NCBI GenBank assembly: GCA_021202925.1
Contig: JAJQCD010000019.1
Location: forward strand, 125,992 to 160,742
Length of the DNA: 34,751 nucleotides
Direction of reading: 5' to 3'
Source of the DNA: Clostridiales bacterium
GTDB taxonomy: Bacteria; Bacillota; Clostridia; Lachnospirales; Lachnospiraceae
Below, piece by piece: positions 13,081 to 32,122 of this stretch. Each line of letters starts with the position of its first letter. Position 1 is the first letter of the stretch. A program made the translations under genes and the position numbers. The notes under the pieces are model-generated. The model was not told where the DNA came from, did not search any database, and saw only the letters and a list, made by a program, of their open reading frames with translations.

Positions 13081-13176
13081 GTCCAGGCCAGAGAAAGTGA
13101 TCGTGCCATCCGCACCTGTCGTCGCCGTTACTGCATCTCCATTGCTGTCTTTTACAGGGTCTGTGCAATCCTCATC

Positions 13177-13179
13177 CTA
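13177..13179 (-). other. In-frame amber (TAG) codon inside a SpaA-like domain
   Basis: On the minus strand the frame reads ...GSVIGIY, TAG, DEDCTDPVKDS..., so the protein alignment continues without a break. Similar modules in the same protein read ALYLDEACTIPV and TVYSDENCTNEV. Leu (TTG) or Ser (TCG) at this place would be one base from TAG. The most economical reading is a point nonsense change in a once continuous gene. Readthrough, suppression or a sequence error cannot be separated from this alone. Confidence 0.9.
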
Positions 13180-16100
13180 ATAGATGCCGATGACCGAGCC
13201 AGCCAGCGTTGCGCTGTCGCCCTCGCTGGTGTCATAAGCGTACTTGGTCACCGTTACACTGCTCAGGTTGGAGTAGTTGGTGACCGTGGCAATGGAATAC
13301 GTCTCGCTGCTTGCTGTAATCACATTGTCTGTGACATAGGCATAGGCCGTGGAGCCGTCGGAAAGAGTGATTTTCGTCAGAGTCGCCCCGTCTACTGCTG
13401 CACTCGTACCCGGATAGTCCTCCGGCGCAAGATAATCATCTTCTACCGTTTCTACAAAGGCATAGTAGTAGTCCGGCTTCAGATACACTGTGGAATTGGC
13501 AATGTAGGTGCCATCCGCATTCTCATAATCATAAAGGCTATAAGTGCCGTCAGCTGTTGCAGAATAATAGATCGTAAAGGTCGCATTATAGCTGCTGGTG
13601 CTGACCGTGGTATCGCTGACAGTGACCTTATTCTTGGTCAGCTTCAGGGTGGGATACGGCTCATCGTAAAGGATCCCCTCTGCCGCATATGTCCCCTGCA
13701 GAACACCGTCGTTGCTCTGCGTCGTCGGAATCGCCTCTGTCAGGTCGATGGTGATATAGTCAATATCATTCCCTTCCGCGTCCTTCAGGCCAGAAAAATG
13801 CGTCGGAACCGTCGTCTCATAAATGTGGTACACATGGCCGGCTTCCAGCACCAGAGACGAGCCGCCATTTTCCACGGTGCCGCTGGTGTTCTTCGCATAA
13901 TCACCAGACTCATACAAGCTCTCGCTGCCGTCGTCAGCCACCTGATAAACGGTGTACCCCGCTCCGGAGACAAATTTGCCGTTGCTGAGATTCTCCTTCG
14001 AAAGATTTACCCGCACATAAGGCAGAATGTTGGTCAGCGTTGTCTTGGATTTGATGGATTCGTAGGCGGTGGCGTAGGTCACGGTGCCGAGCAGATACAT
14101 CTCAATGCCGCTTACCGTGATGGTGCTGCCGCTCTCCAGGGCATAGGAACTGTATGTGGAGTTACCGGTAGCCTCTGCCCAGTAATACTGCTGGGCGGTG
14201 GTACTGTTGCTGCTGCTCAGAATATCCACGCCGCTAATGGTGGCGTCGCCGTCCTCTTCAGTGTCGGAGCGATCAACAATTTCATAGCCACTGTCGCTCT
14301 GCTTCAGCAGATAGACGGTAACAGCGGTATCTTCATCTGCCCATCTTGTCTTTGCGCCGTCCGTGTCGGCCAGCACATAATCCTTGTGCACGCTGACTTC
14401 ACCGGCAGTCTGGTTCGTCAGGGAAATCGCGGTGTCGCCCTCCTCCAGCGTGAAGGAATCGGTCGTCACGGTTGTTCCGTCTACGCTGGCGTCAATATCT
14501 TTTCCGTTGTCTCCGGCAAACATCGTCACCAGTTTGTAACCATCCGGCAAATACTCGACGATCCGGTACTGATAGGCCGTCTCCATGGTGCTGTCTGTAT
14601 AGATCGGCAGTGCCTCCAGCTCTGCGGCGGAAATGGTTCCGCTATCGTCGGTTTCCCGCTGCAGGGTGATGGTTTTGTCCATCGGGGTCCAGTTCACACC
14701 ATCGCTGCTCTGTTCCAGCACAAACACGCCAGCCGTAAAGTCCTCTTCAATTCTCGTCTCGTCCACGGCCACCTGAATCACGTCGCCAGCAGAATTCGTC
14801 GAGAGCAGATATTTTTCAAAGGTCAGTGTGGCGGCATTCTTTTTGTTATAAACGGTGCCGCTGCCGTCCGTGAAGGTGTCGGCCGTCGTATTGGCTGTCA
14901 CTTCCGCCGTATAGACTTCGGTATCCAGCAGGCAGCCGTCAAGAGCCTCCGTCTCCTTAATGTAGTAGGTGCCAACGGCAAGTTTTTCAAAGAGCACAGT
15001 GCCATTGCTGTCCGATTCCGCCGTAATCGCTTCGCCAGTGCTGTCCGTCACCGGTATTGTGCAGGCCTCATCCAAATACAACGCAAATACAGCTCCCGCA
15101 AGGTTTCCTGAAGTGGAGTTGCCACTAAAATCCGTCACGCTCTTTTCAAAGGAGATGCTGCCCCGTTCCTCAGTATTGTAGGCGTTGATCGTCGCCTCCT
15201 GCCCCTCTGTCAGGGTAAAGCTGTAGGTTTCGCCATCATCCTCTGGCGTCAGAGTCGTGCCGCTGTCGGCGGTAAACTCCGTAAAGGAGGTATTGGCAAT
15301 GGTGTTGTCCGTCTCTGCAATGCTGTAACTCCCGGCGTTCACATAGAGCAAACCGCTGTAAGCTTCAGAATCACTGTTACTGCTGCCTAAGAACACGTTT
15401 AAAATCGAAGTGAGCATAGCTGACAACGTCGCAGAAGCACTCGTACTTTCTGCCCGCGTCACATACAATGCCGCGCCGTTCGAATCCCGGGTGATGGTAA
15501 TCACGTTGCTGACGGCAACATATTCACCGTCGATCTTCGCGTACACTTCCGCCGCCTTTCCATCCTCGTCCAGAATCGTAAAGGTCGCGGTGCCGGTGTA
15601 TTCCTCATCCAGTTCGGTGCCGGTCACATAATTGCCGCCGCCATAGATGGAGTTGATGTATTTTTCCAGGTCAATCTTCGCCGGGTCTGCCGCATAGGAA
15701 TAGTCATCTGTCACCGCCTTGGTATCGGAACCCGTTACAGGCGTCGTATCTTCTGCATAGTCCAGCGTGTAGGCCAGCGTGGCGGTATTGTCTACCGTAT
15801 AGTTCTCCACATCATAGAACTGAGAAGCAAACTGAGTGGCATCTTCATAGACCACCGTCACAGTATAAGTGGTCAGGACCGGCACATTGCTGTCCAGTGC
15901 CCTGCCTGCCGCAGAGGTCGTCTGTAAACCGCGATCCCCGGCTGTCGCGTAATCCGTGATGGTTACGGACGTTGTCCCCTCAGTTTTTTGACTCGTGATA
16001 TTGTTGACCACTGTGATCGAGGTGGGGATGTGCTCTGTTCCAGCTTCATCCGTAAGGGTGGGGGTATCCACGATGCTGAAAGAATCAAAGTTCACACGCC

Positions 16101-18933: not shown

Positions 18934-19077
18934 TGCTTACCTCCTTGTTCCGCAATCTCTATGAAATCCTTTTGAACCATCCAGGTACTGAACATTCAGC
19001 CACAAGGATATTACGCAAACGGATTTCCGGGGTTCCCCCATCATTTATATGATCACCCGGTTGCTTGCTGGCCATAC
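18934..19077 (-). other. Leader between HTH regulator and giant gene
   Basis: About 144 noncoding bases separate the regulator stop from the leader ORF. It holds the AAGGAGG site at 18940-18946 and two small inverted repeats (GGGGTTCCCC near 19030 and ATCAT/ATGAT near 19040-19053). No convincing promoter or strong terminator is seen, which favours read-through from the regulator into the giant gene. Confidence 0.4.
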
Positions 19078-19425
19078 TCAGCCAACAGCAACAAGGCTGT
19101 CCCCTTCCTGGTCATTCATCTCATGTCCATCGGACGGCATGATCACGTCACCGCTGTCCTCCGCATGTTCACTCGTGTCTGTTTCATTGAGAAACGACTC
19201 AAACAGAAGCCGATACTCAGACATATCTATCGTTCCATCCTCCTTCAGAACATTCAGGATCATGTTTAATGTCTTTTTGCTTCTGTTTTTTCCTGAAATC
19301 ACATCACAGATCGTGGCATCCGCCTTACCAACTCGCCTGCCAAGCTCTCTTACCGTCCAATTGTTCTGCGCCATCAGCATCTTAATGAGCATTCCCTCCG
19401 GAGTGACTTTCCGTACTCGTTTCAA
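19078..19425 (-). CDS. Small HTH (XRE-like) transcriptional regulator, paralogue 1
   Basis: A 115-residue protein likely to act as a DNA-binding regulator of the giant gene downstream. Residues about 12-62 form a compact helix-turn-helix segment (TVRELGRRVGKADATICDVI at about 24-43) followed by GKNRSKKTL, the usual pattern of short XRE-type domains. The tail is acidic and low in predicted structure. I chose TTG at 19425 because AAGGAGG lies 7 bases upstream and the resulting start MKRVRKVTPEG matches MRRVRDVTPEG of the paralogue at 31254-31550. The open frame continues upstream to 19623, but that extension crosses the operator repeats. The stop is TGA. Two tandem operator-like repeats sit just upstream (19457-19508), so autoregulation is likely. 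The stop is 186 bases from the start of the giant gene on the same strand. Confidence 0.85.
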   Translation of the reverse strand: MKRVRKVTPEGMLIKMLMAQNNWTVRELGRRVGKADATICDVISGKNRSKKTLNMILNVLKEDGTIDMSEYRLLFESFLNETDTSEHAEDSGDVIMPSDGHEMNDQEGDSLVAVG

Positions 19426-19456
19426 GCATTTTCCTCCTTTCCTCGTCCAGGTGTTG

Positions 19457-19508
19457 CCAAAATCCGAATTTATTAGATTTTTGCAAATTCCGAATTCATT
19501 AGATTTTG
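19457..19508 (-). promoter_or_regulatory. Tandem operator-like repeats upstream of HTH regulator 1
   Basis: Two direct copies of an about 25-base element lie side by side on the minus strand: AAAATCTAATGAATTCGGAA and AAAATCTAATAAATTCGGAT (first 20 bases of each), about 26 bases apart. Versions with 1-2 base deletions occur in tandem before regulator 2 (31568-31609). A further diverged copy on the plus strand is at 19708-19728. Position and conservation with the regulator suggest its binding sites. No clear -35/-10 pair could be assigned here. Confidence 0.6.
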
Positions 19509-19574
19509 GGCAATAATAATCCGTGGAAATCCACCATTTCCATAGGCATGATGATCCGATTTCCTTTATCAGAA

Positions 19575-19596
19575 CCACATAATATGTATTATGTGG
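19575..19596. repeat. 22-bp palindrome, copy 1
   Basis: CCACATAATA-TG-TATTATGTGG: perfect 10-base arms around a two-base centre (11-base arms counting the flanking A/T pair). The same 22-mer, read on the other strand, occurs at 19782-19803. It has no T tail, so it is more likely a protein-binding site or repeat element than a terminator. Confidence 0.75.
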
Positions 19597-19652
19597 TAAA
19601 TGCTCAGAAAACCCGATAAACACAGTATTTTTTCTCTGTTCGTAACATAAGA

Positions 19653-19688
19653 AACCGGACTGTTCAGGGCAACTTGAACAGTCCGGTT
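19653..19688 (+). terminator. Strong hairpin, terminator-like
   Basis: AACCGGACTGTTCA / TGAACAGTCCGGTT is a perfect 14-base stem with an 8-base loop, followed on the plus strand by AAAAATTTTTC. It could stop plus-strand transcripts. On the minus strand it would lie before regulator 1 and could insulate it from the genes at 19958-22135. Confidence 0.6.
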
Positions 19689-19707
19689 AAAAATTTTTCG
19701 TAATTTT

Positions 19708-19728
19708 AATCTAATTCATCCGGATTTT
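19708..19728 (+). promoter_or_regulatory. Third, diverged operator-like copy
   Basis: AATCTAATTCATCCGGATTTT on the plus strand matches the operator-like element AATCTAATGAATTCGGAATT at most positions but points the other way. It may be an extra binding site of the regulator or a chance AT-rich match. Confidence 0.35.
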
Positions 19729-19777
19729 TCTTGCTTTTTTAATAGTATTGATGTAAAATGGAGCCATCGAATTCATT

Positions 19778-19807
19778 AAAGCCACATAATACATATTATG
19801 TGGCTTT
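19778..19807 (-). terminator. Hairpin carrying palindrome copy 2
   Basis: AAAGCCACATAATA-CA-TATTATGTGGCTTT has perfect 14-base arms and contains the same 22-mer as 19575-19596. It follows the TAA (19810-19812) of a small coding scrap on the minus strand and is followed on the plus strand by TCTTATG. It may be a former terminator or a site for the same factor that reads copy 1. Confidence 0.5.
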
Positions 19808-19812
19808 TCTTA

Positions 19813-19920
19813 TGTTTCCTTGCTCTTCTCACGTTCCTTCAGTTCTTCTTCAAACCGTTTTCTGATATGTGCTCACAATTTGGGAAAGGCAGAAATCAGC
19901 TTATACAATGCATATGTAAA
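19813..19920 (-). pseudogene. Decayed coding scrap of unknown origin
   Basis: The minus strand reads LPLFTYALYKLISAFPKL, TGA (19873-19875), AHIRKRFEEELKEREESKET, TAA. The charged helical end looks like the C-terminus of a real protein, but there is no start, no ribosome site and an internal stop. I cannot assign a family. Confidence 0.25.
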
Positions 19921-19923
19921 CAA

Positions 19924-19949
19924 GGGCAACCGGTTCCGACCGATTGCCC
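19924..19949 (-). terminator. Terminator-like hairpin after the nuclease fragment
   Basis: GGGCAACCGGT / ACCGATTGCCC with a 4-base loop and one mismatch, 9 bases past the TGA of the minus-strand fragment at 19958. The minus strand continues TTGTTTAC, which fits a modest intrinsic terminator for the AAA-ATPase-like/PD-(D/E)XK transcript. Confidence 0.6.
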
Positions 19950-19957
19950 CCTTCTTT

Positions 19958-20473
19958 TCACCCGTTTTCCTTTTCCACAACAACCCTGCATTTCTTTCTG
20001 CAGCACGCGATCCCATATTTCAGAATCGTCTGCATATCGTCTTTCTTCAATTCCGCCGTATAATCATGCTCTTCAATTTGCTGCATTGCTTCCTGACAGG
20101 CTGCGTCAAAGTCTTCGTTTTCCGCATATTTTACTTCTATAATAATTCCAATTGCTTCATCCTCAATTTCAATTGCGATGTCATAATAGCCCTCGCCAGA
20201 TTCCCGGTTCGAGTCGACCGCCCAGTCGCTTTTAAAGCCCAGTATCCCCAGCAATATTCCATGATAAAAGCAGGCTCTTGGGTCTGGTTTTTTCAGGCCC
20301 TTAGAGATCGCTTTCGCAGAGGGGAAATTCTCTTTAAATTCTTTTCTCACTGCCGTATCCCGGGTGCTGATGGTCTTGGACATGAATTGCAGAAACAGCC
20401 GCTCTACCTCAGAGGCATCTCCGGCCTTCAGCGCATTGCAGAATTCTGCCACCAATGCGCCATCTTTTTCTAC
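19958..20473 (-). pseudogene. Orphan C-terminal PD-(D/E)XK domain of an AAA-ATPase-like family protein
   Basis: This frame follows, without any shift, the TAA of the intact gene at 20474-22135. It encodes only the last part of the same family: a helical linker, SNRESGEGYYD, IIIEVKY and the terminal YGIACCRKKCRVVV. These match the nuclease motifs SNREAGKGRAD and IVIEVKH of the intact gene. The ATPase part is missing and the only early start is a TTG at 20455 without a good ribosome site, so it is best read as the remnant of a second copy fused by recombination. A further oddity is an 18-codon insertion (20270-20323) between KENF and FYHG, where I expect family members to read ENFYHG directly. 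Alternatively, readthrough of the TAA would give a protein with two nuclease domains. Confidence 0.7.
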
Positions 20474-22135
20474 TTAACCGCCTGACACACAGCATTCTTT
20501 TCCACTGAACGCGATCCCGAATTCAGCAATCCGGTCAATTCGAAACCCGAGGAAATACGCATGGTAATCCATCTCTTTGATCTGCCTTAAGGCCGCTTCG
20601 GCCCTGCCCTTCAGTTGCCTGTAGTCCCCGGTGTGTTTGACCTCAATAACAATTCCCGCTCTGTTCAGACGATTGATGAGGATGATATCCGCGCGACCCT
20701 TTCCCGCTTCCCGGTTTGACTTTACCACCCAGCCGCGATAGCCTTTCAGCATGCCGACAAGCAACATATGGTAAGCGGATTCCTTCTGTTCCTCTGTGTT
20801 GCCGCCATCCATGAAACTGATGGATTCTCGCAGACAGGCATTGAGACAGTCCTCTATCTTTCCGGCGTCGCCGTCACCAAATGCCCCGTAAAGCTCCCGC
20901 AGACCGCCTTCCATCTTCTCCATAAACCATTTTTCAATCTGTTCAGCAAAGACTTTATGAATCTCCCGGTTTGGAATCGCGAGTCGATACGTTCCATCTT
21001 CGTTGCGGCCACGCTGGGTCAGATAACCGGCAGTGAAAAGCAGGCTCCAGAGGTTGTCAATATTCCTCTCGATATCCCGGTATGTCAGTTCAAAATTCAG
21101 TTTCTTGTCCACGCAGCCGCCTTCTGACAGAACTTCCAGTTCAAAACGATCCACTTCCTCCGACATCCAGGCGAAGCGATTGATAATGCTGTTCTCACCG
21201 GAATTGGTCCAGTAGTTTTCCGGAGTCTTGTCCGACGTCGACAGAAGCTGATTGCACCAGTTGATCACATCCCATGGACAATAGACGTCGGTTATCCCAA
21301 TGCGATATCCGTCATACCAGTCTTTCGTCGTCCCATAATACTGGCCCAGACCATAATCCTCCAGAAGCGTTCGCACCTCCTGGTCAGTGAAACCGAACCA
21401 CTCGTCACACACATCATCAACCATGGTAAAAAGCCTGGGATTATTCAGGTCGGAGAACAGGCTTTCTTTGGATATGCGCATACAGCCGGTCAGGACGGCA
21501 AAGTACAGGGAGTCGTTTGAATTCAAGGCATAACCGAAAAACTGACGGAGCAGTCCGACCATATCGTCATAATATCCTTTTTCATATGCCTTCTGAAGCG
21601 GAGCATCATATTCGTCGATCAGAATGATGACCTTTTTGCCATAATGTCTGCAAAGGATATCCGATAATTGTTTCAGGCTTGCATGCAGATTCCCGGTTCC
21701 CACACAGAGATTGCGCAGGTTCTCCCTTCCCCTGTCGCCCAGCCGGTCGCTCTCTGTCAGGAAATCGTACGGATCGGCTGCCATCATCACCTGCTCCCAC
21801 AGATTGGCCTTCGCTTCCTCCAGATTACGTCCTGTAACCTGCTTTAAGGTAAGCGAAATAACCGGATACTTACCCAGGTATTCATCACAAAGCTCCTCTT
21901 CCTTTGAAATAGCCAGCCCGTCAAACAGGCTCCTGTCCGTTCCGATCTCAAAGAATCGTCGGAGCATGCTCATGTTCATGCTCTTGCCAAACCGACGCGG
22001 TCGGGTAAACAAATTTACCTCGCCCCAATTATTCAGTAGCTCTTTGATCATCCCGGTCTTGTCAATATAATAAAAATTCTCAGTGATGATCTCTCTGAAA
22101 TCATCGATGCCAATCGGCATTTTCCTCTGCTCCAC
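20474..22135 (-). CDS. AAA-ATPase-like / PD-(D/E)XK nuclease-superfamily protein (DUF1703-type)
   Basis: A protein of about 553 residues of a family common in gut bacteria. It joins an AAA-ATPase-like N-terminal domain to a PD-(D/E)XK nuclease-like C-terminal domain. Its cellular role is not established. Near the start it reads MPIGIDDFREI and FYYIDKT, followed by a P-loop variant PRRFGKSMNMS, a Walker B-like segment VIILIDEYDAPLQKAY and the sensor-like AVLTGCMRISKESL. The C-terminal part has SNREAGKGRADIIL and GIVIEVKHT, the expected Asp and Glu-x-Lys of the nuclease fold. I place the start at GTG 22135, which has GGAAGGTGAG just upstream and gives MEQRKMPIGIDDF. ATG 22153 or 22165 are alternatives. 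A longer frame to 22264 would cross its own promoter and is rejected. The gene is divergent from the polymerase operon and is followed in frame by a fragment of a second copy. Confidence 0.88.
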   Translation of the reverse strand: MEQRKMPIGIDDFREIITENFYYIDKTGMIKELLNNWGEVNLFTRPRRFGKSMNMSMLRRFFEIGTDRSLFDGLAISKEEELCDEYLGKYPVISLTLKQVTGRNLEEAKANLWEQVMMAADPYDFLTESDRLGDRGRENLRNLCVGTGNLHASLKQLSDILCRHYGKKVIILIDEYDAPLQKAYEKGYYDDMVGLLRQFFGYALNSNDSLYFAVLTGCMRISKESLFSDLNNPRLFTMVDDVCDEWFGFTDQEVRTLLEDYGLGQYYGTTKDWYDGYRIGITDVYCPWDVINWCNQLLSTSDKTPENYWTNSGENSIINRFAWMSEEVDRFELEVLSEGGCVDKKLNFELTYRDIERNIDNLWSLLFTAGYLTQRGRNEDGTYRLAIPNREIHKVFAEQIEKWFMEKMEGGLRELYGAFGDGDAGKIEDCLNACLRESISFMDGGNTEEQKESAYHMLLVGMLKGYRGWVVKSNREAGKGRADIILINRLNRAGIVIEVKHTGDYRQLKGRAEAALRQIKEMDYHAYFLGFRIDRIAEFGIAFSGKECCVSGG

Positions 22136-22180
22136 GCGCTCACCTTCCCTCATATGATCTTCCATCTTTCTGCTTCCTAT

Positions 22181-22209
22181 ATTATATTCGTTTTCCACCC
22201 TTTTCTCAA
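22181..22209 (-). promoter_or_regulatory. Promoter of the AAA-ATPase-like gene
   Basis: Minus strand: -35 TTGAGA (22204-22209), 17-base spacer, -10 TATAAT (22181-22186). Transcription would begin near 22174, which excludes the upstream frame extension and sets the start at 22165 or downstream. Confidence 0.75.
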
Positions 22210-22267
22210 CCCTGTTTTCTGTCTTCGGATTGATAAACCGGAAATCGTTCCACGTTGCTTTCATTTG

Positions 22268-22276
22268 TGTTATACT
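22268..22276 (+). promoter_or_regulatory. Extended -10 promoter of the polymerase operon
   Basis: TGTTATACT (TGn plus TATACT) lies 31 bases before the TTG start of the polymerase. No good -35 is visible at 17 bases, consistent with an extended -10 promoter. I see no clear LexA-type palindrome, so SOS control cannot be claimed. Confidence 0.55.
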
Positions 22277-22307
22277 ATCTGCAGAAAGCTTTGTGGAGGT
22301 GAATCGC

Positions 22308-23816
22308 TTGCCAGACCGTTCTTATATCGCCATCGATCTGAAATCGTTCTACGCTTCGGTAGAATGCGTGGAACGTGGACTTGACCCATTGACTACCAAC
22401 CTGGTCGTGGCGGACAAAAGCCGCACAGAGAAGACCATCTGCCTCGCAGTGTCGCCTTCTCTGAAATCCTGTGGCATTTCCGGACGCGCGAGGCTGTTCG
22501 AAGTCGTGCAGCGGGTCGCCGAGGTCAACCGGGAGCGGCAGCGCTGTGCGCCGCAAAAGACCTTCACCGGTTCCTCCTGTGATATCCGGGAGCTGAACAC
22601 GAATCCCGCATTGTCTCTGGATTATATCGTGGCCATGCCACAGATGGCCCACTACATGAAACGCAGCACGGAAATTTATCAGATTTATCTCCGCTTTGTC
22701 GCTCCCGAGGATATCCATGTCTACAGCATCGATGAGGTGTTCATGGATGTGACGGATTATCTGCACATCTACCGTCTCTCGCCCCGCGATCTGGCCATGA
22801 AGATGATACGGGAGGTTCAGAAAGAGACCGGGATCACAGCTACCGCCGGCATTGGCAACAACCTCTATCTCTGCAAGGTTGCCATGGACATTGTGGCGAA
22901 ACACATTCCCGCCGACAGAGACGGCGTGCGCATCGCACAGCTGGACGAGATGAGTTACCGGCAAACGCTGTGGGCGCATCAGCCGATCACCGATTTCTGG
23001 CGGGTGGGACGCGGCTATGCCAGACGTCTGGAAAAGCTGGGGCTTTACACCATGGGCGATATCGCCAGATACAGCCTCAACCGCTCCTGCGAAAATCGCT
23101 TATATCAGGAATTCGGAATCAACGCGGAACTGCTAATCGACCACGCCTGGGGCTGGGAACCGTGCCGCATCTCCGATATCAAGGCCTACCAGCCGCAGAA
23201 CAACAGCATCAGCTCCGGTCAGGTCCTACAGCATCCGTATGAATCTGACAAGGCCAGGCTGGTTGTCCGGGAAATGGCCGACGCGCTTTCTCTGGATCTG
23301 GTGGAGAAGGGACTGGTTGCCAACCAGATTGTACTGACCATCGGCTATGACATCGAAAACCTGACCGACCCGCAGCGGCGCAAGACCTATCATGGTGAGA
23401 TTACCACCGATCACTATGGCAGAAAAGTTCCCAAACAGGCGCATGGTTCCCTCTCTCTGGGACGGCAGACGGCATCCACGATGCTGATCACGAAAGCTGC
23501 CATGGAATTGTTTGACCGCATCGTTGACCGCAACCTGCTGGTGCGCCGGATGTATGTGGTTGCCAACCATGTCGTCCGCGAAGACAACATCCAGCCGCCG
23601 GAGCCGGAACAGCTCGACCTGTTCACCGACTACGCCGCCCTGGAAAAGCAGCGAAAAGCGGAGCAGGTAACATTGGAAAAGGAGAAACGCCGCCAGAAGG
23701 CAGTCCTGGAAATTCAGAAGAAATTTGGGAAGAACGCAATTCTGAAAGGGATGAACCTGGAGGAAGGAGCCACCGGCAGAGAGCGCAATGCCCAGATCGG
23801 TGGCCATAAAAAATAG
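22308..23816 (+). CDS. Y-family DNA polymerase (UmuC/UvrX-like lesion-bypass polymerase)
   Basis: A 502-residue translesion DNA polymerase of the Firmicutes UvrX/UmuC-like branch, which copies past damaged bases. The N-terminal catalytic motif is IDLKSFYASVE (Asp10) and the palm motif is SIDEVFMD (Asp142-Glu143). Together these supply the metal-binding acidic residues. They are followed by the thumb region TAGIGNNLYLCKVAMDI, the helix-hairpin-helix part around DFWRVGRGYARRLEKLGLYT, and the little-finger domain. A charged helical tail ends in QIGGHKK. Start: TTG at 22308, with GGAGGT 7 bases upstream. The open frame extends to 22230 but without a ribosome site. The stop is TAG (23814-23816), which overlaps the ribosome site of the YolD-like gene, so the two are co-transcribed. 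The minus-strand frame at 22275-22979 is a shadow. Confidence 0.93.
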   Translation: MPDRSYIAIDLKSFYASVECVERGLDPLTTNLVVADKSRTEKTICLAVSPSLKSCGISGRARLFEVVQRVAEVNRERQRCAPQKTFTGSSCDIRELNTNPALSLDYIVAMPQMAHYMKRSTEIYQIYLRFVAPEDIHVYSIDEVFMDVTDYLHIYRLSPRDLAMKMIREVQKETGITATAGIGNNLYLCKVAMDIVAKHIPADRDGVRIAQLDEMSYRQTLWAHQPITDFWRVGRGYARRLEKLGLYTMGDIARYSLNRSCENRLYQEFGINAELLIDHAWGWEPCRISDIKAYQPQNNSISSGQVLQHPYESDKARLVVREMADALSLDLVEKGLVANQIVLTIGYDIENLTDPQRRKTYHGEITTDHYGRKVPKQAHGSLSLGRQTASTMLITKAAMELFDRIVDRNLLVRRMYVVANHVVREDNIQPPEPEQLDLFTDYAALEKQRKAEQVTLEKEKRRQKAVLEIQKKFGKNAILKGMNLEEGATGRERNAQIGGHKK

Positions 23817-23827
23817 AGGAGACCCGT

Positions 23828-24274
23828 ATGGTCAACAGAAGTATCGAAGAATATCAGGATATCATCCATCTGCCGCATTTCGTTTCCGAAAAGCGGGCGC
23901 ATATGTCCATGTCCGACCGGGCGGCGCAGTTTTCGCCCTTCGCCGCCCTCACCGGCTACGGCGATGCCGTAAAAGAGACGGCGCGGCTGACCGACCGGCG
24001 GCCCGAACTGGACGAAGACGAGAAACAGATTCTTTCGGAAAAGCTCACGCTGCTCCAGGCCCATCTGAGTGAATCACCCACCGTGGAAATCACCCGCTTT
24101 CATCCCGATCAGAAGAAAGACGGCGGCGTCTGTGACACAGTATCCGGCGTCGTGAAAAAACTGGACACATTCCAGAGAACCATCAGCCTCACAGACGGGA
24201 CAACGATTTCCTTTGACGCGATCGTAGCGTTACACGGGACAATCTTCCAGGCCATGGAGGACTCGTTTGCGTAA
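23828..24274 (+). CDS. YolD-like protein
   Basis: A 148-residue YolD-like protein, the usual companion of UvrX/UmuC-like polymerases in Firmicutes. Its exact function is not established, but genomic pairing suggests a role with the lesion-bypass polymerase. The family signature is clear: MSMSDRAAQFSPFAALTGY at residues 26-44, preceded by YQDIIHLPHFVS. The second half (about 80-145) is a small beta-rich domain with DGTTISFDAIVALHG. The start ATG at 23828 has GAGGAG about 7 bases upstream. The stop TAA at 24272-24274 lies inside the hairpin that separates this operon from the convergent giant gene. Confidence 0.9.
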   Translation: MVNRSIEEYQDIIHLPHFVSEKRAHMSMSDRAAQFSPFAALTGYGDAVKETARLTDRRPELDEDEKQILSEKLTLLQAHLSESPTVEITRFHPDQKKDGGVCDTVSGVVKKLDTFQRTISLTDGTTISFDAIVALHGTIFQAMEDSFA

Positions 24275-24322
24275 TGAACAGGCACGCGGAGTCTCATATA
24301 AACTCCACGTGCCTGTTCATTA
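24272..24322. terminator. Bidirectional hairpin between yolD-like gene and giant gene 2
   Basis: TAATGAACAGGCACGCGGAG and its inverted partner form a 21-base stem with one mismatch and a 9-base loop (24293-24301). It includes the TAA of the YolD-like gene. The minus-strand giant gene stops 5 bases beyond it. On the plus strand the stem is followed by GTCAGTTTTTATTTAC, so it should end the polymerase operon. On the minus strand no T run follows. Confidence 0.75.
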
Positions 24323-24326
24323 TTCG

Positions 24327-27300
24327 TCAGTTTTTATTTACTTTTTCCTTCTTCTTATCGGAAAGGATCACATACGCCACTGCGACCATTCCAAAGAGGA
24401 ACGTGAACGTTGCTGTGCTCGATGTGTTGTCTCCGGTCTTCGGAAGTCCTGTCAGCGGATCCGCGCTGGAAGGAGAAGCCGGGGTGCCCGGATCACCCGG
24501 GTCTGACGTTCCTGCATCGCCGGACGATACGCCCGGTCCGGACGTCGAACCTGCTGTCGTTCCGCTTGTCGAGCTGCCGGAACTGCTTCCACCGCCGCCA
24601 CCGCCTGAACTCGTTTTCTTGTTTGTAAAGGCTACTGTTGCGACACCGCCGCTCTCAATGGTACCTGTTGCGCCTTCGGAAGTCGTCCTGTATCCGCTGG
24701 TACTTGACTCTGTTACTGTGTAGGTAATTCCCTCCGGAAGTCCTTCTGCTGTCTTGCTCTCACCATGCGTCAGGGTAAAGGTCGCTACGCCATTCACAAA
24801 GGTCATGTCTCCATAAGTGCCGTTGATACTTGTGTCGCTCAATGTCACGGTGAAGGTGAACTCCTTCGTTTTACTTCCGCTTCCGGTCACCGTCTTGCTC
24901 ACCGTCAGCGTACCGGTTCCGGTCTCCGGCTCTTCCCCGTCATCCGACGTATAGGTGTTGGTAAAGACCACATTTTTGACTACGTCACTTTCAATTGTAC
25001 CCGTTTCATTTTCTGAAGACGACGTATAATCATTTGCTGCCTCTTCCGTCACCACATAACCAACATTTTCAGGAAGGTCTTCTGCTGTTTTGCTCTGGCC
25101 ATGTGCCAATGTGAAGAACGCAACACCATTCACAAATGTCATATTTCCGTACGTGCCGTTAATGTCTGTGTCATCCAGGGTCACGGTAAACGTAAATGCC
25201 TTTGTTGTATCCGCACCGGTTCCCGTCACGATCTTGGACACTGTCAGGTCACCGGTTCCCACAGTTGGCTCATCTCCCGTGTAAGTGTTTGTTACCACAA
25301 TAGACGTCCCATCTGTTGTCAGGGTTCCGCCTGTACTGTTACCTTCCGTGTCATTTACCTGTACCTTTGACGCTCCCTGAGAATCTGTCTCCTTCACAGT
25401 ATAAGTCATACCAGCGCCAAGGGCAAGGGTAAGCATTTCGCCTGCATTTAAGGTCACGGTTGCGGTTCCGTCTGTAAACTCAACAGAGCCACTGCTTTTA
25501 TTTGCTTCTGCATCACTTACCGTTGCCGCCACAATCCCGCTGTAGGGCTCGTCATCACAGAGTAATGTAATTGTAAACTCGAAGTCACTCGCGGTCGTTT
25601 TCCCTTCCACAACCTTCTGAAGTTCTAATTCTGCCTTCGGTAAGTTCGTTACGGTAATCTCATATGTGGCGGTAAGGATATCGTTATCCTCATCATCTAC
25701 CTCCTCGTAGGTGACAACACTAAAGTATTCGTCTGATACTTCCCCTATTGTATATGTATATGTACCGCTGGTCTGCGTATCAGAGTCATAATAGGAGTCA
25801 TATTTGGGCAAATCGGTAACAGTCACCGTCCAGTCATTCTCCGCGGTGAGCGTCAAAGTGCCAAGGTCAGCCGTCACGCCCTTGCTGTCTGTGGCATACA
25901 GTTCTACCTCGATGGATTCAGGTATGCTACTCTCATCAAACGCGTTACCCCAGACTTTCTCAATGTTGAGTGTAACCATTCCATCATCCCGTCCAATGAC
26001 CAGGTTTCCGTTGATGGCAATGGCTGCGCCAGTACGAATGGCACTGTTTCCTGTGATATAGGTCGTCACACGATCCAGTCCCGTGATTTCGGTTGCCGTC
26101 GACCGGAAAGCAAGTCCGGTCTGCCCACCACGATACTGCGACAGATTCGTTACATCAACTACATTGCCGCTACGATCTACCCAGTTATACGCACCTCCGC
26201 CCAGCATTACAGGAGTTAATGTGAAATTTTCCTGATAACTATCGGAATATAAAGTGATATCTCTATACTGCCATGCATGGTTATCATAGATCACCGCACC
26301 ATCTGTCACATAAATCTCTATGCTGCTTGTATTACAAGCCGCAATCGTACCATCATAATAATCATTCGACGTAGACTGACTCTGGACATGACTGTTGTCA
26401 GTGATCTTCACATTGTAGAGATACAGCGTACCATATCCAAAGCTACCGGAGCTGTCATTTACATAAATACCGCCGCCGCCATAGGATGTCTCATTTGCTG
26501 CTGAATCCGTCACCTGCTGGTTATTCGTGATATACCCGCCATAAATATAGGCATCCGCACCGGACCAGACAGCAAGTCCTCCACCGCGGCTGTATGCTGT
26601 ATTAGAATCAATATAGCCGCCATTCATGTACAGCGTTGCATTGCCGTAGAGGAAGACACCTCCACCAATATCAGCGGTGTTATAAGAAATGGTACCGCCG
26701 TTGAAGTACATAACAGCCTCTTTGCTGTCATCGTTCGCCACCAGAGCAATACCGCCGCCCCAGTTGCCCGCGTTTCCGGTAACGGTTCCGCCGTTCATGG
26801 TCAGCGTTCCATTGACCACGGTAACAGCCGCCTCCGTTTCGCTTATCTGTCCACTGACGGCGTTGACATTATTCTGGATCACGGTGCCGTCTTTGATTGT
26901 CAGCTCCGCATTTTCACCATATACCTGAATCAATGAAGATTTTACAGTAATATTCTGTCCATCAATGGTAATATCAGACAAGGTCAGATTGCCGCTATCA
27001 CCGATTACTGCCAAAACCCCGGTAAATGTCGGGAAGCGCATCAGAGCCACTTCACCGGCCTCATCAGTCAGATCATCTAAAGACCATTCCTCGGTATCAT
27101 TCACTGTGATCGTATTGATCACATAAATGCCGTCCACATCTTTTCCAGCCTCAAGCGCTTCCGCCAGCAATTCTTTCGCTTTCGAAAAAGTTTTTACTGG
27201 GTTTGCATAGCTTCCATCGCCTGTCTCATTGCTGCCATTTACCCCATCTACAAAAATGCCACTGATGTTTATTGTTTTAGCAACGACATTACTATTATCA

Positions 27301-30300
27301 TTTTCCACATATACGAGAGAGGAACTTGCTCCGGATATCGTAATCGACCCTGCAAGCGTATCCGAAAGAGTCTCCCCGGAAGCAGGAATTACCAGTATAA
27401 CACTTGTTGCATTTTCAGGATTTTGCAGCGTCGCAAGTACTGTGCTGGCCAGTACGATTGTCAGTCCCTCCGGTTCAAACGAAGCCGAAGCCTCAATGCT
27501 GTTTCCATCTGCAAGTCGAATCGTATCAACCTGAGTATCTCCCAGAATACTCAGAGATTGACCCTGATGATCAATACTTTCCACTGTCCCGTCACCATTC
27601 AGCGTCAAGGAACTGCCGGATGAGAGCGTTACCGCGTAATTAGCGGATTTGCTGCTGATCGTATGTCCATTCAAATCAATGATAATGGAGGCATCTTCCG
27701 GAATCGTCACATCCTCTACGATTGTATATCCGCTGTTGTCTGATTCACCGGCAATCAGCTTGATTACCAGATCAGCTTCTTCTGAATTTATTACTGCTTC
27801 AATGGCATCAGTAATGGCTTCATACTGTGTTGTTACTCCATCAATAGTAACCTCTGCCACATAACGTATGGTTCCGGCTGTAAAGTAGAAAGTATCTGCA
27901 TTTTTACTGGAAAGAGTCGAGCTGTTTAATACACTGTCTAAATTCAATACGTTAACAAAATCTCTCCACATATAACCGTCAAAAGATGTTGAGCCATCAC
28001 TCATGGAAGAAGCCGAAAGTACTGACACATTAAAAGACGCAGCCGTCACTACAGCTTTCGTCACCAACCAGTCATTCGCCGCGTTGCCGTCTGTTGAAGC
28101 ATTACCATACAGCGCACCGCTGGTCATATTTAACGCTCCGGATGCGCCTCCTGCAGTGACACCAGTATTGCCTGTAATGACCGTATCCGTTAGAACCGCA
28201 TTCGCATAATATGCAGTGGCCGTTGAATATCTTTCAACGAATAACCCTCCTACAGTTCCTCCTTCATTATTACTGATAACACAGAAATCAAAGTTATAGC
28301 TGTATATTTTTTGTGCATCTTTAAGACTCGGGTTAGAAGTGTATGTATGAACACCACCGACTCCCGAAGCACTCGTATTTCCAGTAATTTCGCAATTGGT
28401 TGCTGTAAACCAGGATGCGTAAACGCCTAGACCGCCTGTCGTTGCTGTTTCAGACTCATTATTACTAATTGTGACATAATCCAAAGTTACTTTATTTCCC
28501 GCCGTTGTTCTGTCGCCAATAATAGTAAGCCCCGCAGCATAATAGTAATATTGAGCACTTACCGGTGTTCCCGTCACCATATTATCACTGACAGTAAGGT
28601 AGGTCAACGAAACCGCAGCAGAAGGACTGCTAATATAAGCGCCACCACCGCCATTTGTTGCTGTATTCCCGGATATCACGACAGGATTATTTCCCGTCCC
28701 CATGATTGTGATTTCACCGCTTATATATAAGCCGCCGCCCTGATTACCGGATGTATTGTTTGTAACAGAACCACCGGTTATTGTTTTGGTGCCGCTTGCA
28801 TATACACCGCCGCCACTGCTTGTTGCCGTATTTTCCGTAATTGTACCGCCGGTAAACGTAAATTCACCCGTGCTATATACACCGCCACCGGTGCTTGTTG
28901 CCGTATTCCCTGTGATAGTACCGCTGGCAAGTTTTAAACTTCCAGTACTGTACACACCACCGCCCCTCGCTGCAGATCCGCCAGTAACAGTACCGGTTCC
29001 GCCTTCACTGCCGTCCATTAAAGTCAGCGTCCCACTATTCGTGATCACACTCCCACTGCCCGTACCGGTCAGGGTACACCCATTTAAATCCAGAATGATC
29101 ACCTGAGAAGAATCGACCGTAATATCTTCTGTAGAATCAGCTAGCATAGTGATGGTCGTTTCCGTACTGTCAGTCACTGCCTCCAGAGCCGACGTGACCG
29201 TCTCGTAAGTTGTCTCCCCAATCTGTGCGACAATTTCAGCCTCAGCCGCGACTGACATAATTCCCATTAACATCAGCGAGAAACTGCTTACCTCGTACTC
29301 GATGGTATCCACGCCGTCCGCGTCGTCTGCCGTCGTAATGGCTTCGACCTCTTCCACTTCGCCGTCGTCGCTGATATGTAAGAGGGACAGGTTGTCCGCG
29401 GTCTCATCATAGCCCGTCAGAACCGATCCATCTATAAAACGGATACTGATCGAAATGTTTGCTCCTGCTTCCGGCTCGACTTCTTCATCCGCCGCGTTCT
29501 TAAAACAGATATCATAGGCTACGAATGCGGAATCCGCTGCGGATACGCCTTCCTGTGCGGCTTTTCCTTCCCAGATTTCCGTTACCTGCTGCCAGGTCTC
29601 TGAGCTTTCTGTGATTTCTTCCGCATACAGATAGACTTCTTCCTCAAAGGCTCCATCCGGTACCACGGCGGTAATCACTGCAGTTTCCGTCTCTACTGTA
29701 TAGACGGTATCATCCCCGGAGGAGATCACGCCTTCCAGTCCCAGTTCACCCGTCGTCGTGACGAATACCACTGCCGCGCCGTCTTCCATGGCGACTGCGT
29801 CATACAGCTCGCCGTCCAGCTGATTGTTGTCTTCTGACACGCTCAGTACTTCTTCCGTTTCCTCGGCATCAGTCGGAGAGGCAGCCAGCGTCACAAGATT
29901 ATATGAATGGACAGAAATCGAAGCGCTTCTGGCATCCACGTTCTCTTTATCCGAATCATCGTCTTTATCATCGGATTTGTCATTGGATTTATCATTGCTG
30001 TCCTTCTCTGAATCGTCGGAACGATCAGACGCATCAGACGAATCATCGGAACCGCTGTCAGTGTCCTTATCCGAATCAGAATCCTTGCTGTCATCCGACA
30101 CGTCGTCTGCCGGATCGCTATCATTCTCGGTTTTATCTTCGTCATCCGACTGACTGTCGCTATCGGCGACTTCGGTAGTATCCGAATCGTCATCCCCATC
30201 CACATCGCCTGTGGTATCTGGATTCTCATCCGCATCATCAAAATCCTGCGTATCTTCTGTTTCCGTATTTCCTTCAGCCATCCTGTCAGAATCGCTGTCC

Positions 30301-31097
30301 GCAGTTTTCTGCTCGTCATCCATATCACTTACGGAATCTGTCACATCAATGACGATCTCATCTGAGTCCGACTCCTCGCCATTCTCTGTTTCCGTATACA
30401 CATCCTCGGATTCATCCGCATCAGCCGACACATCATCCACGAGTTCTTCCTCTGCTTCCTGATCAGAGACATCCGCTGCACCGCCGCCTTCAATCGAAGC
30501 TTCCTCATCATCCAGAGCGCCGTCAACCGCGCTCTGCGGTGCAACCGTAATCACATCCGTCTCTCTGCCATCGACAATCACGATGGCATTCTGCTCGATG
30601 TCTGTGTTGTTCACGAGCATGAAGAACACGTCCTCATCTCCGGTGATCTCGTAGCTGTCCAGGGTCTCGCCCTCATCCAGCAAATCCACCACATCCAGAC
30701 GCACAAATATCCGCAGATCGAGATTCCCATCCGCATCCCTGGTATCTTCAATCTCCGGTTTTACTTCATATAACAAACCATCCGCATCAAACAACTCCGC
30801 ATAAGTATCTTCCTCTGCGCCGGAAAAGCCAAGATCCTCTGCACTGATCAGCGAACCGTCGGCAATGGCTTCCGTAACCGCCTCTCTGAGCGCTTCACTT
30901 TCCAGTTCGAATTCCTGAACTTCCTCTTCCGAATCCGCATAAGTCAGCATCGCCGGGTTCACTACACTGCTTCCGAGCATGCTGATACAAACAGCTGCTG
31001 AGATCAAACGTTTTGCCTTCATCATCTCAGCATAAATCCGCGAAGCCATTGTCACTTTTTTCTTCCGGCTTCGCCCTCTGACCTTATTCTCAGACAT
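24327..31097 (-). CDS. Giant LPKTG surface protein with acidic stalk, beta-helix repeats and Cna_B/SpaA-like domains
   Basis: A 2,256-residue cell-wall-anchored protein, probably an adhesin or matrix-binding fibre. The start is taken at ATG 31097, with GGGGAG 9 bases upstream (an in-frame ATG at 31190 is an alternative). Signal peptide: hydrophobic 31-48, likely cut after TYA (52-54). Residues 66-190 align with 67-190 of the first giant protein. About 206-390 is an Asp/Ser/Glu-rich stalk. About 420-605 is the second shared domain (LDGELYDAV, FVTTTGELGL). About 700-1000 and 1400-1550 are PMP-like beta-helix repeats (GGSAARGGGVYSTG, GGGVYASGTKTITGG, GGTITENTATSSGGG). About 1709-1820 is a Cna_B domain (EKVWGN), followed by three SpaA-like modules (ELQKVVEG, TVSKIVTG, TVSKTVTG), the last two about three-quarters identical in DNA. 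A Gly/Ser linker, LPKTG at about 2218, a hydrophobic helix and the tail KKKEKVNKN complete the sorting signal. The gene follows an HTH regulator on the same strand. Confidence 0.93.
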   Translation of the reverse strand: MSENKVRGRSRKKKVTMASRIYAEMMKAKRLISAAVCISMLGSSVVNPAMLTYADSEEEVQEFELESEALREAVTEAIADGSLISAEDLGFSGAEEDTYAELFDADGLLYEVKPEIEDTRDADGNLDLRIFVRLDVVDLLDEGETLDSYEITGDEDVFFMLVNNTDIEQNAIVIVDGRETDVITVAPQSAVDGALDDEEASIEGGGAADVSDQEAEEELVDDVSADADESEDVYTETENGEESDSDEIVIDVTDSVSDMDDEQKTADSDSDRMAEGNTETEDTQDFDDADENPDTTGDVDGDDDSDTTEVADSDSQSDDEDKTENDSDPADDVSDDSKDSDSDKDTDSGSDDSSDASDRSDDSEKDSNDKSNDKSDDKDDDSDKENVDARSASISVHSYNLVTLAASPTDAEETEEVLSVSEDNNQLDGELYDAVAMEDGAAVVFVTTTGELGLEGVISSGDDTVYTVETETAVITAVVPDGAFEEEVYLYAEEITESSETWQQVTEIWEGKAAQEGVSAADSAFVAYDICFKNAADEEVEPEAGANISISIRFIDGSVLTGYDETADNLSLLHISDDGEVEEVEAITTADDADGVDTIEYEVSSFSLMLMGIMSVAAEAEIVAQIGETTYETVTSALEAVTDSTETTITMLADSTEDITVDSSQVIILDLNGCTLTGTGSGSVITNSGTLTLMDGSEGGTGTVTGGSAARGGGVYSTGSLKLASGTITGNTATSTGGGVYSTGEFTFTGGTITENTATSSGGGVYASGTKTITGGSVTNNTSGNQGGGLYISGEITIMGTGNNPVVISGNTATNGGGGAYISSPSAAVSLTYLTVSDNMVTGTPVSAQYYYYAAGLTIIGDRTTAGNKVTLDYVTISNNESETATTGGLGVYASWFTATNCEITGNTSASGVGGVHTYTSNPSLKDAQKIYSYNFDFCVISNNEGGTVGGLFVERYSTATAYYANAVLTDTVITGNTGVTAGGASGALNMTSGALYGNASTDGNAANDWLVTKAVVTAASFNVSVLSASSMSDGSTSFDGYMWRDFVNVLNLDSVLNSSTLSSKNADTFYFTAGTIRYVAEVTIDGVTTQYEAITDAIEAVINSEEADLVIKLIAGESDNSGYTIVEDVTIPEDASIIIDLNGHTISSKSANYAVTLSSGSSLTLNGDGTVESIDHQGQSLSILGDTQVDTIRLADGNSIEASASFEPEGLTIVLASTVLATLQNPENATSVILVIPASGETLSDTLAGSITISGASSSLVYVENDNSNVVAKTINISGIFVDGVNGSNETGDGSYANPVKTFSKAKELLAEALEAGKDVDGIYVINTITVNDTEEWSLDDLTDEAGEVALMRFPTFTGVLAVIGDSGNLTLSDITIDGQNITVKSSLIQVYGENAELTIKDGTVIQNNVNAVSGQISETEAAVTVVNGTLTMNGGTVTGNAGNWGGGIALVANDDSKEAVMYFNGGTISYNTADIGGGVFLYGNATLYMNGGYIDSNTAYSRGGGLAVWSGADAYIYGGYITNNQQVTDSAANETSYGGGGIYVNDSSGSFGYGTLYLYNVKITDNSHVQSQSTSNDYYDGTIAACNTSSIEIYVTDGAVIYDNHAWQYRDITLYSDSYQENFTLTPVMLGGGAYNWVDRSGNVVDVTNLSQYRGGQTGLAFRSTATEITGLDRVTTYITGNSAIRTGAAIAINGNLVIGRDDGMVTLNIEKVWGNAFDESSIPESIEVELYATDSKGVTADLGTLTLTAENDWTVTVTDLPKYDSYYDSDTQTSGTYTYTIGEVSDEYFSVVTYEEVDDEDNDILTATYEITVTNLPKAELELQKVVEGKTTASDFEFTITLLCDDEPYSGIVAATVSDAEANKSSGSVEFTDGTATVTLNAGEMLTLALGAGMTYTVKETDSQGASKVQVNDTEGNSTGGTLTTDGTSIVVTNTYTGDEPTVGTGDLTVSKIVTGTGADTTKAFTFTVTLDDTDINGTYGNMTFVNGVAFFTLAHGQSKTAEDLPENVGYVVTEEAANDYTSSSENETGTIESDVVKNVVFTNTYTSDDGEEPETGTGTLTVSKTVTGSGSKTKEFTFTVTLSDTSINGTYGDMTFVNGVATFTLTHGESKTAEGLPEGITYTVTESSTSGYRTTSEGATGTIESGGVATVAFTNKKTSSGGGGGGSSSGSSTSGTTAGSTSGPGVSSGDAGTSDPGDPGTPASPSSADPLTGLPKTGDNTSSTATFTFLFGMVAVAYVILSDKKKEKVNKN
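29930..30480 (-). repeat. Asp/Ser-rich coding low-complexity stalk
   Basis: Encodes repeated DSDSD, DDSDS and DKSDDK-type peptide between the two shared N-terminal domains of the second giant protein. It occupies the same architectural place as the Ser/Gly stalk of the first giant protein but is strongly acidic. Such a segment would be extended, and could bind divalent cations. Confidence 0.8.
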
Positions 31098-31253
31098 CTT
31101 CCTTTTCTCCCCTTCCCTGTCAATTCTGATTGCCTGCAAACGGTTAATCTCTGTTCCCCAATCGCATGTACCTCCTTCTCGTGAATCCATTTATAAACTC
31201 TCTTTTCTTTCCAGGTTCCGCATGTGCGGCCACCAGGAACCTTTCCAGATAGC
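31098..31253 (-). other. Leader between HTH regulator 2 and giant gene 2
   Basis: 156 bases with a 7-base inverted repeat AGGTTCC / GGAACCT (around 31213-31242) that lacks a T run. A strong AAGGAGG at 31171-31177 serves no large gene: 3 bases later an ATG opens only MRLGNRD (31144-31167). This recalls the AAGGAGG and leader ORF before the first giant gene, but the parallel is loose. Confidence 0.35.
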
Positions 31254-31550
31254 TTATGAAACAGCCTCATCGTCTGTTTCAGGCATATCGGATAGTTTCT
31301 TATTATTCCCCATTTGAGCAACAAACCATTTCTCGTACTCCGTCATTTCAAATGCCGGATCTCCATCCTGCAGTTCATTAAGGATTAATTCCAACGTTTC
31401 TCTGCTCTGATTTTTTCCGGAAATAATATCACAGATTGTTGCGTTCGATTTGCCAATCTTTGCGCCGAGTTCCTTTAATGTCATATGTCTGCGCGCAAGC
31501 AGGGCTTTGATGATCCAACCTTCCGGCGTAACATCCCGCACTCTTCTCAT
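31254..31550 (-). CDS. Small HTH (XRE-like) transcriptional regulator, paralogue 2
   Basis: A 98-residue DNA-binding regulator, clearly related to the one at 19078-19425. The start MRRVRDVTPEG, the helix-turn-helix TLKELGAKIGKSNATICDII (24-43) and GKNQSRETLELILNEL correspond position by position. The C-terminal 35 residues diverge. The start ATG at 31550 has GAGGAGG 9 bases upstream. The stop TAA is 156 bases from the giant gene on the same strand, matching the layout of the first module. It has its own consensus promoter (31622-31650) with tandem operator-like repeats just after the expected transcription start, a layout typical of autorepression. The target in trans, including the divergent pilin gene, is unknown. 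Confidence 0.87.
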   Translation of the reverse strand: MRRVRDVTPEGWIIKALLARRHMTLKELGAKIGKSNATICDIISGKNQSRETLELILNELQDGDPAFEMTEYEKWFVAQMGNNKKLSDMPETDDEAVS

Positions 31551-31567
31551 ACGTCAACCCTCCTCGC

Positions 31568-31609: not shown

Positions 31610-31621
31610 TATTTGCTGATA

Positions 31622-31650
31622 ATTCTAGCAAAATCATTCACCCATGTCAA
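31622..31650 (-). promoter_or_regulatory. Consensus promoter of HTH regulator 2
   Basis: Minus strand: -35 TTGACA (31645-31650), 17-base spacer, -10 TAGAAT (31622-31627) with an extended TGC before it. This is the best promoter in the window and probably drives the regulator and, by read-through, the giant gene. Confidence 0.8.
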
Positions 31651-32058: not shown

Positions 32059-32122
32059 AATCAGGATATCCGGCAGTATCGGAAGGTTATCACGGATACT
32101 GTCTTTTGAAAGGAGATTTTTC

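Follow-up and report, generated by a model that had tools for sequence, protein, structure and literature searches.

The stretch of DNA analyzed here, called the window (34,751 nucleotides; positions 125,992 to 160,742 of contig JAJQCD010000019.1, assembly GCA_021202925.1, from a Clostridiales bacterium of the Lachnospiraceae), carries two modules, A and B, in which a small helix-turn-helix (HTH) regulator gene precedes a gene for a giant surface protein on the same strand. Upstream of regulator A, a pair of inverted repeats encloses a short segment with a promoter, and similar arrangements recur ahead of related regulators elsewhere (Table 1). Loci of this kind are very probably phase-variable surface loci, in which a recombinase would flip a promoter segment ahead of an operon led by the HTH gene. 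An earlier reading of the letters alone (the sequence-only reading) had noticed the two related regulators ahead of the two giants, and this arrangement is confirmed. Regulators A and B share 53% identity across 76 residues (BLASTP, E = 7e-29). The gap to the start of the giant gene is 186 nucleotides (nt) for A (start at 18891) and 156 nt for B (start at 31097, with a further upstream ATG at 31190 also open).

Table 1. Coordinates of the regulators, switch elements and giant surface proteins in the window
Feature	Position	Strand	Remarks
Regulator A	19078..19425	-	HTH, 115 residues, TTG start; 53% identity to regulator B; one of seven copies in the genome
Regulator B	31254..31550	-	HTH, 98 residues, ATG start
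Inverted repeat, regulator-proximal site	19575..19596	.	Core ATGT; 22 nt, perfectly inverted copy at 19782-19803, spacing 185 nt
Inverted repeat, distal site	19782..19803	.	
Putative invertible segment	19597..19781	.	Bounded by the repeats; eight further regulators in two genomes have comparable segments upstream
Sigma-70-like promoter, TTGCTT-17-TAAAAT	19731..19759	+	Directed away from regulator A (OFF)
Strong stem-loop, terminator-like	19653..19688	.	Inside the putative invertible segment; 16 pairs
Fixed promoter-like site of regulator B, TTGACA-17-TAGAAT	31622..31650	-	Faces regulator B; 11/12 consensus
Giant surface protein A	211..18891	-	One frame, 6,227 codons counting both stops; in-frame TAG 13177-13179, TAA 211-213
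Giant surface protein B	24327..31097	-	LPKTGD-transmembrane-basic tail; Cna_B/DUF7601 stalk
Shared domain 1 in giant A	18318..18735	-	
Shared domain 1 in giant B	30513..30953	-	
Shared domain 2 in giant A	16747..17334	-	
Shared domain 2 in giant B	29241..29837	-	

Regulators, repeats and promoters

Both regulators match HTH-type models alone in Pfam. HTH_3 (PF01381, curated cut-off 23 bits) matches regulator B at 28.2 bits, and regulator A gives weak HTH_3 and HTH_26 matches, the former at 15.7 bits and under the cut-off. NCBIfam returns weak, unrelated models, and neither library indicates homology of A or B to UpxY or UpxZ. The regulator family has seven copies in the 3.17-Mb genome, with strongly alike HTH cores among the five closest paralogs. 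It was found in 3 of 348 genomes of the bacterial family and 1 of 392 of the order at E ≤ 1e-12 (this genome counted in both), and in 4 of 24 genomes of the genus at E ≤ 1e-8. Two other ideas were rejected: a phage origin of the regulator, as no close relative occurs among viral contigs, and a riboswitch between regulator and giant, as Rfam has no match there at gathering thresholds.

Repeat pairs lie just upstream of four of the seven regulators, namely A and those at loci L011, L012, and L013, with arms of 21-24 nt that are 96-100% complementary and spaced 180-202 nt apart. When the whole 3.17-Mb genome was searched with the site pattern CCRCATAATnnnnATTATGYGG, allowing up to two mismatches, nine occurrences were obtained. 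Eight of them are the four regulator-upstream pairs and one, on contig C27, is single; a reversed control pattern gave 0 occurrences in the same genome. The regulator copies at C18:298 kb and on C28 have no such pair.

The metagenome-assembled genome 'Clostridiales bacterium C.7_4' contains eight regulator relatives, five of which have repeat pairs 175-212 nt apart (L061, L062, L063, L064, and L066). L067 has a single site adjoining a contig end, and two loci have no repeat pair, L065 among them with a run of N upstream. Farther afield, L059 and L060 of another genus (G275) combine recombinase, repeats and a related regulator, and L050 and L052 (G002) have a repeat of different sequence ahead of the regulator. 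In total, a repeat pair is present at 13 of 24 regulator loci examined in six genomes. The gene behind the L059 regulator resembles, by eye, a response regulator and not a surface gene. At L040 (G002) and L058 (G137), a gene resembling a SARP/BTAD-type activator (by eye) follows the regulator relative, with no repeats within the stretch examined.

A sequence match to the promoter TTGCWT-17-TARAAT is found within the segment in all nine regulator switches of the two genomes. The variants are TTGCTT or TTGCAT, a 17-nt spacer, and TAAAAT or TAGAAT; the distance from the -10 box to the repeat is 20 nt in eight switches and 21 nt in one. The promoter points toward the regulator (ON) in L013 and L064 and away from it (OFF) in the other seven, A included. 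The ON assignment of L064 was made by eye, and the promoter match agrees with the orientation given for all nine. Both orientations are thus seen between different loci of the two genomes. All nine switched regulators start with TTG, and regulator B starts with ATG.

The genes behind the regulators differ widely. Giant surface proteins follow at A, L011, L061, L062, L063, and L066; those of A, L011, L063, and L066 contain the domains shared by giants A and B, and those of L061 and L062 do not. L012 leads a pilus operon, which encodes a protein of the PF16569 backbone-pilin type along with a class C sortase. L064 (ON) also carries a pilus operon, which looks similar by eye to that of L012 (OFF). 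The cargo of L013 comprises capsule genes (CpsB/CapC and a Wzz-containing protein). The four switches of this genome accordingly lead two giant adhesins, one pilus operon and one capsule operon. A 4-nt overlap between the regulator gene and the one after it in L013 and L061 makes it very likely that the two share one operon. The L061 and L062 loci stem from a recent duplication: their switches show 92% mean column identity and their regulator proteins are identical, with giants 40% identical. In the ON capsule operon, the gene after CpsB (L013 709-2658) encodes a protein with both a Wzz and a sugar-nucleotide dehydratase domain, possibly a deletion fusion; few genes precede the contig end.

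Recombinases and matched repeat cores

A tyrosine recombinase of about 300 residues lies directly upstream in five of the nine regulator switches (L011, L013, L061, L062, and L064), its 3' end falling inside, at or just before the outer repeat. The L013 enzyme matches PF00589 (E = 4.8e-24). The catalytic residues of tyrosine recombinases are Arg, Lys, HxxR, His, and Tyr, and these are kept throughout a nine-row recombinase alignment, except that the final Tyr is replaced by Cys in L059 (2081-2965, G275). Judged by this substitution, the L059 recombinase may be inactive. A third close recombinase homologue of this genome, on C13, stands without regulator or repeat pair and could act in trans on the A switch.

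At E ≤ 1e-60 the recombinase family is present in 74 of the 348 sampled genomes of the bacterial family. Ninety recombinase loci were taken, and the recombinase frame was recognized by script in 72, the other 18 being dropped; 12 of the 72 had less than 300 nt downstream, which leaves 60. A repeat pair of at least 12 nt starts near the recombinase stop codon in 57 of these 60 loci, and the three without one include L129 and L163. In a two-sided test of the first 30 loci, which have flanks on both sides, the pair was found downstream in 25/25 and upstream in 0/27 (at least 600 nt upstream). The L071 pair sits at the recombinase 3' end. Among 56 further switches, 47 have a loosely defined promoter near a repeat; the promoter faces the recombinase side (OFF) in 38 and the far side in nine (L071 counted reversed). 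An HTH regulator stands beside the switch in only two of the first 30 recombinase loci. With recombinase and switch common and the regulator rare, the switch is widespread, and the regulator appears to have been added to it in particular lineages.

The four central bases are equal in both repeats of 65 of 66 pairs, and the arms differ in 49 of the 66; 42 core classes are represented. This count excludes one of 67 pairs, whose dyad was weak, and includes a few near-identical loci (L157/L158 and L130/L131). Pair detection requires 12 exact bases and hence favors matched cores, a bias that can hide few exceptions because 57 of 60 loci were detected. In the duplicated switches of L061 and L062 the core differs by one base, and the same change is found at both ends. 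Strand exchange by tyrosine recombinases demands identical cores, so matched cores with drifting arms are the expected pattern. All cores differ within G000 (four switches) and within C.7_4 (five). Locus-specific cores as an address code were considered and rejected as a general rule, identical cores not being avoided across 14 genomes.

Giant surface proteins and their shared domains

Giant A begins with a signal-peptide-like segment, followed by the shared domains, a Ser/Asp/Gly-rich linker, a SpaA/FctA/Cna_B/DUF7507 stalk and a LAKTGE-transmembrane-basic tail. Its gene had been taken to end at 13177; the same frame passes this single TAG and continues to the TAA. The LPKTGD signal of giant B scores 14.6, slightly under the TIGR01167 cut-off of 15.9. 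The PF00746 cut-off is exceeded by a giant on C10 and by the window gene at 32123-34750, and giants A and B, the former with its LAKTGE ending, are not among the matches. The stalks of A and B are of ordinary types (SpaA, FctA, Cna_B, DUF7601, and DUF7507).

The two N-terminal domains that the sequence-only reading had found common to both giants are indeed homologous by BLASTP. Domain 1 aligns residues 26-188 of A with 58-222 of B (37% identity, E = 2e-23), and domain 2 aligns 525-697 of A with 458-639 of B (27% identity, E = 3e-9; B numbered from 31190). The outer parts are unlike, as had been stated: past residues 760 (A) and 720 (B) the giants have no mutual BLASTP match at E ≤ 1e-3 with low-complexity masking. 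It also holds that the shared domains cannot be assigned to a known family, as neither matches Pfam or NCBIfam up to E = 0.05, and domain 1 has no sequence relative in the PDB. The shared-domain family is undescribed in the libraries searched.

AlphaFold models of the two domains are weak, with mean pLDDT (predicted local distance difference test) values of 53.7 and 60.2, and no fold can be named from them. A known fold for domain 2 was sought with Foldseek, which returned no match at E ≤ 0.001. The best candidates, domains of GAIN type (E = 3e-3 to 6e-3, probability ≤0.51), and other matches such as glucanotransferases (E ≥ 0.01, TM-scores ≤0.36) were set aside.

Domain 1 is present next to the regulator in five proteins (A, B, L011, L063, and L066), to which the L061 and L062 giants show no BLASTP match in this domain. 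A profile search finds it in seven of 348 genomes of the bacterial family, this one included, in frames mostly of 660 to 3,900 codons; the G227 frames are short (135 to 238 codons). In other genera there are 18 matches in six genomes, 17 loci of which were examined (L116, beside L111, was left out). A regulator within about 1.5 kb upstream was found at none of the 17, two of which have no upstream sequence. L100 (G244) is the sole one of them with a recombinase end and repeat pair. There, the domain-1 giant lies downstream of both, and a first gene of 229 residues replaces the HTH regulator. L102 and L108 have short AT-rich repeats, without a recombinase.

Three surface-protein genes have one in-frame TAG each: at 13177-13179 and 32543-32545 in the window and at L011 5451-5453, flanked by open frames of 1904/4321, 140/735, and 1026/1205 codons, respectively. 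Of 87 long frames in the loci retrieved from this genome, a set that includes some antisense frames, 18 terminate at TAG, so it is an ordinary stop here and amber recoding was rejected. A strict pattern for amber-suppressor tRNAs, used without a positive control, gave no match. No in-frame TAG occurs within the stretches examined of the C.7_4 giants L061, L062, L063 (cut by a contig end), and L066. The TAGs may be nonsense mutations, sequencing artefacts or leaky stops.

Interpretation and comparison with known systems

The phase-variation model proposed here would work as follows. A tyrosine recombinase, encoded beside the switch or in trans, would recombine two palindromic sites of 22-24 nt and flip the segment of about 175-212 nt that carries the promoter. 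In one orientation the promoter would drive an operon that opens with the gene of a small HTH regulator, putatively of Cro/C1 type, and continues with genes for a surface structure, be it a giant adhesin, a sortase-assembled pilus or a capsule; in the opposite orientation the operon would be silent. Inversion in this strain would then make cells differ in their surface coat. With less confidence, we suggest that the HTH protein signals the ON state in trans and represses its own or sister surface operons, which would keep the number of structures made at one time small. Module B would be an unswitched member with a fixed promoter, and the regulator should be produced only in the switch-ON state, or always in the case of B. 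The repeats, the inner promoter, its two orientations among similar loci, the recombinase with its 3' end at the switch, the operon order and the matched cores are all features read from sequence.

The distribution of contig ends also speaks, indirectly, for the model. They fall within 300 nt of the recombinase 3' side in 11 of 60 loci and of the 5' side in 0 of 60, in a nonrandom sample, which is drawn mostly from multi-copy genomes and omits some matches lying close to the start of a contig, on either side. Assemblies would stop in this way if the sequenced population held both orientations. That bias in sampling weighs against the model, as do several other results. No recombinase is encoded near regulator A within the window, and no inverted repeat pair accompanies regulator B at 31200-32600; besides B, 10 more of the 24 regulator loci are without a pair (three of the ten are cut off or have N runs upstream). 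None of the assemblies presents one strain in both orientations, and the differences seen are between loci only. Identical cores within one genome are not avoided (3 pairs against 1.05 expected, P(≤observed) = 0.98, in 14 genomes with at least two scored switches). Finally, the evidence on a shared operator is equivocal. Three top-ranking 8-mers are found in 9 of 10 leaders, and the maximum in five shuffles is 6; however, one of these words is the ribosome-binding site, and much of the remaining sharing is explained by common descent. In switches without a regulator these 8-mers are present in 8 of 47 windows, which are shorter and not a like-for-like comparison.

Other explanations of the loci were weighed against this evidence. 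The sequence-only reading had proposed an undescribed family of regulated surface displays, defined by a conserved base that carries interchangeable stalks and heads. The proposal holds in part: this is a repeated, regulated module of surface display, with seven regulator copies and interchangeable surface cargo, and the five regulator-adjacent proteins with a domain absent from Pfam, NCBIfam and PDB sequences speak for such a family. Its definition by the shared domains is improbable, however, and domain and regulator are already contradicted as a defining pair. The regulator precedes domain-less cargo at L012, L013, L061, L062, and L064, and domain 1 occurs without the regulator in other genera, a result named beforehand as one that would count against the proposal. 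Because the putative sortase-type anchor is C-terminal, the N-terminal domains are the part farthest from the wall, and a 'base' is topologically unlikely. As judged from the loci compared, the recurring partner of many regulators is the invertible promoter switch. It is very improbable that the palindromic repeats serve only as operators or terminators of a static segment. In favor of this view, every site is itself palindromic and the distal one of A has a terminator-like stem by score, yet the sites are paired with matched asymmetric cores, the promoter is found in both orientations among similar loci, and repeat pairs adjoin the recombinase in nearly all family loci. Least credible is that the modules are remnants of mobile elements, made up of an integrase with attachment sites and a phage-type regulator. 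The recombinase is nearest to XerA/XerD-like models (under their cut-offs), one 42% homologue lies in a faecal phage record and five lie on plasmids, and the regulator is apparently of Cro/C1 type. Against this, the sites are inverted and not direct, no phage genes were recognized at the loci, and the viral contigs hold no close regulator relative.

Within the phase-variation model, autoregulation and cross-locus repression by the HTH proteins would both fit the data. Quite possibly the proteins are plain local autoregulators of the downstream operon, without cross-talk among loci. Where a switch is present, the promoter is followed first by the regulator gene, whose small product, apparently of Cro/C1 type, suits autorepression, and a GAATTCAT-like word lies just past the -10 box in some switches. 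On the other hand, the paralogous HTH cores are strongly alike and the L061 and L062 regulators are identical proteins ahead of giants that are only 40% identical, which makes cross-binding hard to avoid. A more speculative and rather doubtful proposal links the paralogous proteins into a network across loci, comparable in Clostridia to UpxY/UpxZ but unrelated to them, in which each ON operon would announce itself and hold down its sisters and the unswitched B would provide the default coat. If so, independent random switches would give an ordered, mostly one-at-a-time surface display.

By its sequence features, namely paired inverted repeats around a short intergenic segment, an inner promoter usable one way and an associated recombinase, the switch belongs to a known kind, the inverton. 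In the portion of Jin et al. 2025 consulted, an inverton group 139 is paired with an invertase group 35 in Clostridia, and invertons often lie near cell-surface genes (PMC11892184). These groups are the closest published relatives of the switch in that portion, as inverted-repeat switches of Clostridia with a tyrosine-type recombinase adjoining nearly all of them, and the present switches likely belong to them, being set beside them by description and not by comparison of repeat motifs (PMC11892184). Unlike here, 'helix-turn-helix' and 'transcriptional regulator' appear 0 times in the main text of that paper (PMC11892184). Among the titles and abstracts listed from the open-licence literature, none describes a multi-copy HTH gene leading such operons.

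For the leading regulator, the closest precedent, by analogy, is the UpxY/UpxZ pair of Bacteroides. As the excerpted account has it, UpxY is an antiterminator and UpxZ a cross-locus inhibitor, and both are first genes of capsule loci behind invertible promoters (PMC12632263). Those Mpi-controlled loci likewise have an invertible sigma-70-type promoter, multi-copy regulators in first position and surface polysaccharide genes downstream. The first gene here instead encodes an HTH protein of putative Cro/C1 type, giant adhesins and pili are among the cargo, and several of the recombinases adjoin their own switches, whereas the same excerpt describes one global invertase (PMC12632263). The multi-copy HTH leader gene is thus a possible counterpart of UpxY/UpxZ.

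Two systems of Clostridioides difficile were also compared. In the consulted sections on cwpV and RecV, imperfect 21-bp inverted repeats 195 bp apart lie upstream of a large cell-wall protein gene and are inverted by a site-specific recombinase; the promoter is outside the inverted segment, in contrast to the present switches, and the OFF state is ascribed to a terminator (PMC2784873). With 57 bp from the end of those repeats to the cwpV start, there is no intervening regulator gene (PMC2784873). The cmrRST locus, according to the part of its description consulted, is phase-variable and encodes transcription regulators for colony morphology and motility, but its products are a kinase with two response regulators, and it has no multi-copy HTH gene at the head of surface operons (PMC8844915).

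Candidate on/off switches thus number at least four in this one genome; giant adhesins, a pilus and a capsule lie behind them, and one regulator family leads them all. The way in which a single cell coordinates its many random surface switches becomes a testable question outside Bacteroides, and the matched-core rule lets such switches be checked simply by sequence in the many recombinase-bearing genomes of the family.

Among neighboring genes, window positions 20474-22264 encode an AAA-ATPase_like/PDDEXK_9 protein (Pfam) near the surface module, and genes of similar appearance by eye are found near several further surface modules, at L037 3470-6753, L011 11160-12953, L012 13029-14001, L013 173-484, and L064 2281-3855. 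The gene at 32123-34750, divergent from regulator B and reaching the contig edge, encodes a further LPXTG-type anchor protein above the Pfam cut-off.

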